Part shown: positions 40,398 through 41,755 of the stretch, one piece after another
Position numbering within the stretch: the first letter of the stretch is position 1
Layout of the letters: each line of letters opens with the position of its first letter
Origin: Candidatus Rokuibacteriota bacterium
GTDB taxonomy: Bacteria > Methylomirabilota > Methylomirabilia > Rokubacteriales > CSP1-6
Direction: 5' to 3'
Length of the DNA stretch: 64,000 nt
Assembly (NCBI GenBank): GCA_030647435.1
Contig: JAUSJX010000134.1
Coordinates: 27,649-91,648, forward strand
Program-made: the position numbers and the translations under genes
Notes under the pieces: generated by a model
Told to the model about the DNA's origin: nothing
What the model saw: only the letters and a program-made list of their open reading frames with translations
The model's database searches: none

Positions 40398-40607
40398 TCA
40401 TCGCATCCTCCCCCGCATGAGCCGGTAGCGATACACGGCCAGCACGACAAAGCCCAGGAGCAGCGGGAGCAGGACGAGATCCAGGCGGCCCGTCCAGGCG
40501 CCGAGGCCGATCGCCCCGAGCACCAGGACCGCGACCGGCGTCAGACAGGCCAGACACGTGAGGGCAGTTCCGATGACACCAAGCACGAGCCACCAATCAC
40601 GCCGCAT
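40398..40607 (-). CDS. merF: MerF-like mercury(II) transport protein
   Basis: A 69-residue inner-membrane protein with two helices. The first holds TALTCLACLTPVAVLVLGAIGLGA, key part LACLTPVAVLVLGAIGLG, the position of the vicinal-Cys Hg site in MerF (CCFTPVLV). Here the site reads C-L-A-C rather than CC, so the two Cys are separated. The second helix matches LDLVLLPLLLGFVVLAVY. MerF takes Hg(II) into the cell. GAGGGAG lies nine bases after the upstream gene, and the gene is the third of the MerR-controlled minus-strand operon. Confidence 0.85.
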   Translation of the reverse strand: MRRDWWLVLGVIGTALTCLACLTPVAVLVLGAIGLGAWTGRLDLVLLPLLLGFVVLAVYRYRLMRGRMR

Positions 40608-40616
40608 GACTCCCTC

Positions 40617-40907
40617 CTATAGCTCTTCCGCGGCAAACGCACCGTACTCGAGCGTCAACCGGTAACGCCGACCGCAGCATTCGACCAGGTCCCCGGCCTT
40701 GGCGTCTTCCGAAAGCGTCAACAGCCGGCCACAGCCGGGGCAACTCACCCGATGCGCCAGGGTCGCGACCCAGCGGCTCCCTTCATCCCTCACCCGGAGG
40801 GCATGCCCCGCTCAGTTGGGGCAATCCACCAGGCCGCCAGACCGGGTCCCTGGGGGCAACGTGACCAGCTCGCCACAATCGGGGCAGCGAACGGTCGGCA
40901 CCGTCAT
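40617..40907 (-). CDS. Zinc-ribbon-like selenoprotein in the mer operon
   Basis: A 96-residue protein made of two similar halves. Half one has C8-P-D-C11 and C29-P-N-U32, half two C56-P-G-C59 and C77-C78. The TGA at 40812-40814 is therefore exactly where the fourth metal ligand of a zinc ribbon or rubredoxin-like site should be, and the frame continues with well-formed protein (AGHALRVRDEGSRWV). A hairpin follows it. I read it as Sec. The start overlaps the stop of the Sec-glutaredoxin (ATGA) and merF follows after nine bases. A Sec ligand would bind Hg(II) far more strongly than Cys. Without readthrough only 31 residues would be made. I do not know a named family. Confidence 0.72.
40787..40801 (-). 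promoter_or_regulatory. SECIS-like hairpin of the zinc-ribbon protein
   Basis: A 5-bp stem CCCTC/GAGGG closes the loop CGGGT, which starts 15 nt after the TGA. The shortest stem of the eight. Confidence 0.55.
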
Positions 40908-41143
40908 ATCCCCAGGAGCCGCTTGAGGCGGCCCCGGTCGAAGCCCACGATCACCTCGTCATCCACCGTGATGACAGGCACCGCCATCCGCCCGGTCTTG
41001 GCGACCAGCTCGTCGCGGGCTGCCGTATCCTCGGCCACGTTCTTGGCGGTGAACTCGATCCCGTGAGACGAAAGAAACTCTTTCGCCGCGTGACACGACT
41101 GTCAGGTCGTCGACCAGTAGACCGTCACTTGCCGGTTCGCCAT
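40904..41143 (-). CDS. Glutaredoxin-like selenoprotein (UxxC) of the mer operon
   Basis: A 79-residue glutaredoxin-fold protein. The active site is T-T-U14-Q-S-C17-H, with the TGA at 41102-41104 in place of the CxxC N-terminal Cys. It keeps the TVYWST strand, the AKEFLSSHGIEF helix-strand, the cis-Pro MAVPVITVDDEVIVGFD, and a C-terminal RLKRLLG helix. Sec at the attacking position normally raises thiol-disulfide or reductase activity. It is the first gene after the MerR operator and its stop overlaps the next start. A plain gene caller stops at codon 13 or misses the gene. Role in reducing Hg-thiol adducts or delivering thiols is inference. Confidence 0.85.
41070..41086 (-). promoter_or_regulatory. 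SECIS-like hairpin of the glutaredoxin
   Basis: A perfect stem CGAAAG/CTTTCG, extendable by one G-T pair, closes the loop AGTTT. The loop starts 21 nt after the TGA at 41102-41104. Confidence 0.75.
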
Positions 41144-41239
41144 CCTTGCCCTCCGCTGAGAAGACCTCCGAAAATTCGCCTCCGCGGGCCCTAGTGGCTG
41201 CCTTGCTCCTCGAGTACCCCTTGGCCCCCTTGTGGCGAG

Positions 41240-41270
41240 ACGATAAAGCCTGTAGTAACTAGAGACTCAA
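41240..41270 (-). promoter_or_regulatory. MerR-type operator/promoter for the Sec-glutaredoxin - Sec zinc ribbon - merF operon
   Basis: On the minus strand a -35 box TTGAGT (41270-41265) and a -10 box TATCGT (41245-41240) are separated by exactly 19 bp. The spacer contains the dyad CTCTAGTTACTACAG. This over-long spacer is the hallmark of MerR-family activated promoters. It points away from merR, which starts 30 bp away on the opposite strand. Confidence 0.9.
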
Positions 41271-41299
41271 GCGCTATTTTCAAAGGCAGGGAGGCCGGC

Positions 41300-41755
41300 A
41301 TGGACATCGCGTCGTCCCGCGTGGCGATTGGACCCCTCTCGAAGCGCACCGGCTGCAACATCGAAACGATCCGGTACTACGAGCGTGTTGGGCTCCTCCC
41401 GGCGCCCGTGCGAAGTCCCGGAGGCTACCGCCAGTATGGAGACCAGCACCTCAAGCGGCTGACCTTCATCCGGCGGGCCCGGTCACTCGGTTTCTCGATC
41501 GACGAGGTCCGGACACTGCTCAAGCTCGCCGACGAGCGCAAGCGCCCGTGCGCGGAGGTCCGGGTCGTGGCCGCAGCGCACCTCGAGGATGTCCGTGCGA
41601 AGATCGCCGACCTCCGGGCGATGGAGCGCGTACTCAACGAGACCGTCGCAAAATGCGCCGATGGGACACAATCGGACTGCCCACTCGTCGAGGCGCTGTA
41701 CCGAGAAGATTCCAGCCCACGCGCAGCCTCTCCGCACCGCCGTCGGAAGGGTTGA
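41300..41755 (+). CDS. merR: MerR-family transcriptional regulator, Hg(II)-type
   Basis: A 151-residue activator. The winged helix covers about residues 8-75, with TIRYYERVGLLPAP and GYRQYGDQHLKRL typical of MerR. The metal-binding Cys are at 84, 119 and 127; the spacing matches the three Hg-binding Cys of Tn501 MerR (82, 117, 126) rather than the two of CueR, so mercury is the likely effector. It is divergent from the operon that carries its operator. The C-terminus beyond residue 138 is poorly conserved and basic. Confidence 0.92.
   Translation: MDIASSRVAIGPLSKRTGCNIETIRYYERVGLLPAPVRSPGGYRQYGDQHLKRLTFIRRARSLGFSIDEVRTLLKLADERKRPCAEVRVVAAAHLEDVRAKIADLRAMERVLNETVAKCADGTQSDCPLVEALYREDSSPRAASPHRRRKG

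Follow-up and report, generated by a model that had tools for sequence, protein, structure and literature searches.

MerR-regulated genes for a glutaredoxin, a LysW-like zinc ribbon and MerF, with selenocysteine predicted in both soluble proteins: a likely short form of a larger mer-type operon

Among the closest described systems to the locus reported here is the canonical mer operon (merR-T-P-F/C-A, with merB). In a 2021 survey, 906 of 1795 merB-carrying genomes were found without MerA, and its authors ask what MerA-less cells do with the Hg(II) that MerB produces (PMC8261052). Selenoproteins with links to metals have also been described. A 2026 review puts the number of prokaryotic selenoprotein families or subfamilies at 119, and its table includes SaoL, mercuric-transport, UxxU metal-binding and FmdB selenoproteins (PMC13188914). 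In this table there is no LysW-like ribbon, and SaoL is the sole MerB-type entry. SaoL, listed as a MerB-like selenoprotein in reviews including PMC13188914, belongs to the Sec-assisted organometallic (SAO) system. The same review describes work by Deng (2026) in which 63 selenoprotein genes were predicted in a Methylomirabilota MAG, a set that may include genes of the kind described below.

The DNA analysed here, called the window, is a stretch of 64,000 nucleotides from a Rokubacteriales genome of 5.79 Mb that is 98.48% complete and falls in family f1 together with genomes G044 and G018. In the window, a divergent merR precedes three consecutive minus-strand genes: grx, a zinc-ribbon gene and merF. 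Our main reading, to which we give a probability of about 0.6, is that this is a MerR-controlled operon with predicted selenocysteine (Sec) in both soluble proteins, and likely a short form of a system that would bind Hg(II) and hand it on by way of selenolates and thiolates, without reduction by MerA. The features are as follows.

41300..41755, plus strand: merR, divergent regulator with the sensor-type Cys84, Cys119 and Cys127
41240..41270, minus strand: promoter/operator, TTGAGT - 19 bp - TATCGT, dyad at 41247-41267, read from the sequence
40904..41143, minus strand: grx, glutaredoxin with predicted Sec14 (UQSC); PF00462 E 1.2e-17
41067..41087, minus strand: SECIS-like hairpin of grx, GGCGAAAGAGTTTCTTTCGTC; same form or a GAG..CTC variant in relatives
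40617..40907, minus strand: two-half LysW-like zinc ribbon with predicted Sec32 (CPDC..CPNU / CPGC..CC); PF21344 39.8 bits, cut-off 27
40787..40801, minus strand: SECIS-like hairpin of the zinc-ribbon gene, CCCTC CGGGT GAGGG; fixed place in Sec homologues
40398..40607, minus strand: merF, small mercury transporter; PF11431 E 2.8e-13, NF033565 61.7 bits, cut-off 50

The window operon shares a MerR-type regulator, an operator with a 19-bp spacer and MerF with the canonical mer operon, and the operons of relatives also share MerB, MerT-like and MerP-like genes with it. In contrast to the canonical operon, the window operon has no MerA and adds a glutaredoxin and a LysW-like zinc ribbon. A further difference is the predicted Sec in the glutaredoxin, in the ribbon and, in relatives, often in MerB and the MerP-like proteins. 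The mer hardware is known; what is new here is its selenium-rebuilt, reductase-free form.

The original prediction had named a UxxC glutaredoxin, a two-half zinc-ribbon protein with Cys-Pro-Asn-Sec, and MerF, and all three were recovered. The glutaredoxin has 79 residues, exceeds the PF00462 cut-off and carries its in-frame TGA at codon 14 (TTUQSC, 41104-41102). The ribbon protein has 96 residues, with the in-frame TGA at codon 32 (CPNU, 40814-40812). The Cys pair of MerF is a CxxC, with no second pair and no other Cys in the protein. The overlapping starts and stops that had been proposed hold for grx and the ribbon, since grx ends in a second TGA that overlaps the ribbon start (ATGA), but not for the ribbon and merF: the ribbon gene stops with TAG and merF starts 9 nt farther on.

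The promoter with a 19-bp spacer was found as predicted, with TTGAGT at 41265-41270 and TATCGT at 41240-41245 on the minus strand. A standard sigma-70 scan with spacers of 16-18 bp found no promoter. When the operator pattern was searched with at most one mismatch, 13 sites were obtained in 11 of 99 genomes, and the reversed-pattern control gave 0 sites. Twelve of the 13 sit between merR and merB or grx; as the pattern was derived from such operons, the informative part of this count is the absence of other sites. The window's own genome contains the operator twice in 5.79 Mb, at the window operon and at a merB-bearing copy on another contig. Short and long operons have almost the same dyad in their 19-bp spacer, and its core was seen at 11 of the 13 MerR loci scanned, with one altered base in the other two. 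The merB-bearing copy (L084, G000:C120:128-1558) is a second copy of the operon start, with merR, merB and grx at the contig start; its merB is split over two frames and the contig ends ahead of the ribbon. A perfect operator copy was also found in another genome (L110, G053:C11), where the seed genes are absent from the surrounding 3 kb.

The regulator had been called an Hg-type MerR, and this label holds in part. The gene is divergent, it encodes Cys84, Cys119 and Cys127, and the Hg MerR model TIGR02051 ranks first among the profiles at 133.6 bits, but this is under the cut-off of 150.85. The CueR and CadR models gave 131.7 and 117.3 bits. Among solved structures, the best matches were 5gpe, which we take to be PbrR-like, and CadR, with a top score of 104.6 bits; the mercury regulator 5crl scored 95.0. 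An alignment of 12 distinct operon MerRs shows Cys84, Cys119 and Cys127 in every one, and Cys19 is not conserved; CadR-type regulators, aligned with the window MerR, have three Cys too. With the profile score under its cut-off, the label is used because of the three Cys and the neighbouring genes.

The ribbon was found in 35 of the 99 genomes by a search that reads through stops, at nearly its whole length in 33 of them. After copies were removed, 42 distinct loci were left, 17 of Rok type and 25 of NC10 type. A large protein set contained 467 homologues; 14 were fetched from among the matches listed, and all are Cys forms. The structure predicted with Cys in place of Sec had a pLDDT of 90.5, and LysW entries were its top fold matches. 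The window ribbon has the same fold and the same zinc-ligand pattern as the LysW/ArgW carriers (PF21344, NF041070), from which it differs in being a tandem, in its mer context and in the predicted Sec as a ligand; it scores 49.5 bits with the carrier model NF041070, under the cut-off of 75. Its likeness to the FmdB-family zinc-ribbon selenoprotein (TIGR02605), which appears in tables of PMC13188914 and PMC9312934 and in the text of PMC2398784, is a predicted Sec in a zinc ribbon, and the score with that model is 16.4 bits (cut-off 31.3).

Codon 14 of grx and codon 32 of the ribbon gene, both TGA, very likely encode Sec, as judged from the Cys/Sec exchange, the hairpins at fixed places and the Sec machinery of the genome. 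At ribbon position 32, Sec was read in 28 of the 42 distinct loci and Cys in 14, with no other residue, although these loci are related and their counts are not independent events. The homologues have only Cys or Sec at this position, which was the check proposed with the original prediction. At position 11, Sec occurs in 15 loci, all of which also have Sec32, Arg occurs once (L046) and Cys in the remainder. On a tree with the ligand columns masked, at least two Sec/Cys changes took place (2-4 in bootstraps). The gene neighbourhood and the exchange between in-frame TGA and Cys recur in 42 distinct but related loci and so are not due to chance. For the glutaredoxin, Sec is at the site in 40 of 40 distinct relatives where the pattern found the motif, with no Cys form among these, and grx carries its own hairpin downstream of the TGA.

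All 28 Sec ribbon genes share a hairpin that has a 5-nt loop and whose first base is base 18, counting from the TGA; its stem has at least 5 bp in 27 and 4 bp in one. It is present in two of the 14 Cys genes, and the other 12 have stems of 0-1 bp at this place. The two exceptions, L100 and L043, both come from the window's own genus and look as if they had recently lost Sec. Pair 14-26 of the hairpin is GC in 24 genes and CG in 4, including the window, which is a compensatory change. Codon choice in the stem follows the same division: the Leu codon is CTC in 28/28 Sec genes versus 4/14 Cys genes, and the Arg codon is CGG in 24/28 versus 1/14. Folding energy alone does not separate Sec from Cys ribbon genes (p 0.64; p 0.011 for z-scores), and an Rfam search of the window gave no match. 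The genome encodes tRNA-Sec (71.3 bits), SelB (380.2), SelA (584) and SelD (343.1), all over their cut-offs. The genes for tRNA-Sec, SelA and SelB cluster on contig C56, and the SelD gene has one in-frame TGA.

If the TGAs were instead true stops, the genes would be decayed or would code for short peptides, and the standard code does break them at these codons. This is very improbable given that the ribbon aligns to its end with the Cys forms, with 76% identity to one relative (L002) over the whole length, that the TGA genes have the fixed hairpin and the codon bias, and that the Sec machinery is encoded in the genome. Because the standard code truncates the TGA-bearing ribbon and MerB genes at the key site, annotation has probably missed them.

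Compared with the operons of relatives, the window operon is likely a MerB-less short form of a larger operon, as judged from gene content. The fullest order of the Rok type is merR (divergent), merB, grx, ribbon, merF, merT-like and merP-like, with merB between the regulator and grx. The 17 Rok-type loci have, within 4 kb, Grx in 17, MerB in 11, MerF in 11, MerT in 12, MerP in 10 and a divergent MerR in 11. The corresponding numbers for the 25 NC10-type loci are Grx 24, MerB 13 (one weak), MerF 7, MerT 11, MerP 13 and ArsR 13, with merB and an ArsR-type gene together in 11 loci; many contigs stop inside the cluster. Glutaredoxin is present in 41 of the 42 loci. The mer context expected of homologues was found in both types, with one or more additional mer genes no more than 4 kb away at 17/17 Rok-type and 22/25 NC10-type loci; the other three NC10-type loci have no other mer gene within 4 kb. 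Some of the MAG records are labelled Myxococcales, Elusimicrobia, Acidobacteria or Deltaproteobacteria and may be misbinned.

The MerT-like genes are distant members (PF02411 E 9e-5 to 3e-3, under the cut-off). The motif could be read in 19 of 24 MerP-like stretches, and it is UxxU in 14, CxxU in 2, UxxC in 2 and CxxC in 1. A known family of UxxU metal-binding (seleno)proteins, NF041115, takes in the MerP-like protein of L034 (106.3 bits, cut-off 95), and that of L047 is under the cut-off at 90.9; a gene of this type is not in the window operon. The ArsR-type gene of L047 (L047:3462-3851, NC10) resembles TsoR of another selenoprotein operon, with 50.5 bits against a cut-off of 115. Two patterns of Sec use were seen beside merB, and in both a lineage effect is possible. 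In the Rok type, 4 of the 6 operons that lack merB have a Sec32 ribbon, and 0 of the 11 that contain merB do. In NC10, two-Sec ribbons beside merB mostly pair with a TGA-less MerB, with L099 as an exception.

Two MerB proteins of relatives, unbroken as far as an in-frame TGA, match PF03243 with E 9.6e-18 and 2.8e-17. Translated across its TGA, the MerB of L034 gives matches to solved MerB chains with E 6e-12 to 2e-6. In the alignment to solved MerB, Cys96 and Asp99 are kept and the TGA falls on the catalytic Cys159 (SLUTTINFFRSEEHL), and this position is likely Sec in many relatives: among 18 distinct stretches caught by the pattern, 13 have the Sec codon and 5 have Cys. The Sec merB genes have stems of 6-8 bp near base 22, with a common place for the 4-nt loop in 12 of 13, and the Cys genes have stems of 4, 5, 5, 5 and 8 bp, the last in L053. 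A merB in two frames was found in L035 and in the second operon copy of the window's genome. PF03243 occurs in 50 of 99 genomes, with three matches in the window's own genome, and merB is not in the window operon. The relatives' proteins stay under the cut-offs of the MerB models NF033555 (53-76 bits, cut-off 200) and NF009710 (68-81 bits, cut-off 193), and five of them scored 56.1-80.1 bits with the SaoL model NF040728 (cut-off 140).

The SAO system resembles these operons in that it, too, combines selenoproteins with a lyase related to MerB, SaoL. It differs in these SaoL scores under the cut-off, and among the matches listed for the operon proteins there was no other Sao family. In the relatives' MerBs Sec is at the Cys159 position; the Sec of SaoL is in a CU motif. 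Another MerB-like paralogue, also with an in-frame TGA (L085:2522-4150, G000:C170), lies directly behind a PrdB/GrdB-like gene that also has an in-frame TGA, and the two are possibly another organometal selenoprotein pair.

The closeness of the SaoL and MerB scores for these lyases, the ArsR-type gene of the NC10 operons and the place of CadR among the best solved matches of MerR would all suit an operon whose substrate is a different soft metal or organometal (Cd, Pb, As or Sn). We regard this as unlikely, since MerF exceeds the MerF cut-off, the triad at positions 96, 99 and 159 is kept in MerB, and the neighbours are MerT-like and MerP-like.

The prediction that merA is absent from the window was borne out, with no match over the TIGR02053 cut-off there or in the remaining genome. 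The best match in the genome (402.8 bits, cut-off 454.45) has the CxxxxC site and is without the C-terminal Cys pair. TIGR02053 was exceeded in 2 of the 99 genomes, one of them with the ribbon, so that MerA over the cut-off is absent in 34 of the 35 genomes with a ribbon match, which are MAGs. MerA has been reported from some Rokubacteria (PMC8261052), and since the searched genomes are MAGs, its lack is no group-wide rule.

For mercury, the main reading gives the following route, in which mercury as the ligand, all transfer steps and the fate of the metal are what we infer. MerR would act as the metal sensor. MerF, as judged from its family, would carry the metal to the cytosol, joined in relatives by the MerT-like and UxxU MerP-like proteins. 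In the long form, MerB would cleave the carbon-mercury bond by means of Cys96, Asp99 and residue 159, which is Cys or predicted Sec. Hg(II) would then take the place of zinc in the ribbon, at its Cys3Sec or Cys4 site, and the UxxC glutaredoxin would serve in metal exchange or in reduction of the ribbon site. In the original prediction the ribbon Sec would be a mercury trap or exchange site and the glutaredoxin could release the metal; we regard these roles, and mercury as the inducer, as putative.

A stronger form of this proposal is a MerA-independent, selenium-based mercury detoxification. Here, cleavage by the Sec159 of MerB would be followed by selenolate exchange to the Sec ribbon with release of zinc, and by turnover through the Sec glutaredoxin. 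The window copy, which has no MerB, would do the same for inorganic Hg(II) imported by MerF, and the ribbon would be a new selenoprotein family with Sec as a metal ligand. We hold this version tentatively, at somewhat less than even odds.

The ribbon could also be an accessory regulator or a folding or redox factor and no mercury carrier, with the glutaredoxin repairing metal-blocked or oxidised thiols. The LysW fold by itself reveals no function, and a glutaredoxin at 41 of 42 loci would be in keeping with such a role. We consider this still less probable than the use of another metal, because, apart from an Arg11 in L046, ribbon positions 11 and 32 exchange only between Cys and Sec, 15 loci having Sec at the two positions together, and because the ribbon is fused to MerF in a database protein (P0013) that has PF21344 and PF11431 domains in a single chain.

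With the ribbon as a Hg(II) carrier, two dedicated small proteins in merB-linked operons without merA could answer the question of Hg(II) disposal raised in PMC8261052. The candidate proteins are defined and expressible. Natural Sec (28) and Cys (14) ribbons of one metal site make the contribution of selenium to mercury chemistry measurable.

The window glutaredoxin resembles the YruB and UXX-star glutaredoxins, which are glutaredoxin-like proteins with Sec forms. It is under the cut-off of both models, with 85.0 of 88.55 bits for TIGR02196 (YruB) and 55.3 of 66 for NF041212 (UXX-star).

Three further window genes lie near the operon. The ORF at 41944-42480 (plus strand), between merR and a thioredoxin-like gene, gave no match in family profile searches. 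The membrane protein encoded at 43014-43529 (minus strand) is weakly MerT-like (NF010314 E 6e-4, PF02411 E 0.04) and has a Cys pair. The ResA/thioredoxin-like gene itself (42483-42989, plus strand), downstream of merR on the same strand, has an in-frame TGA at 42678 (UPTC) with a hairpin behind it and is predicted to encode another selenoprotein.
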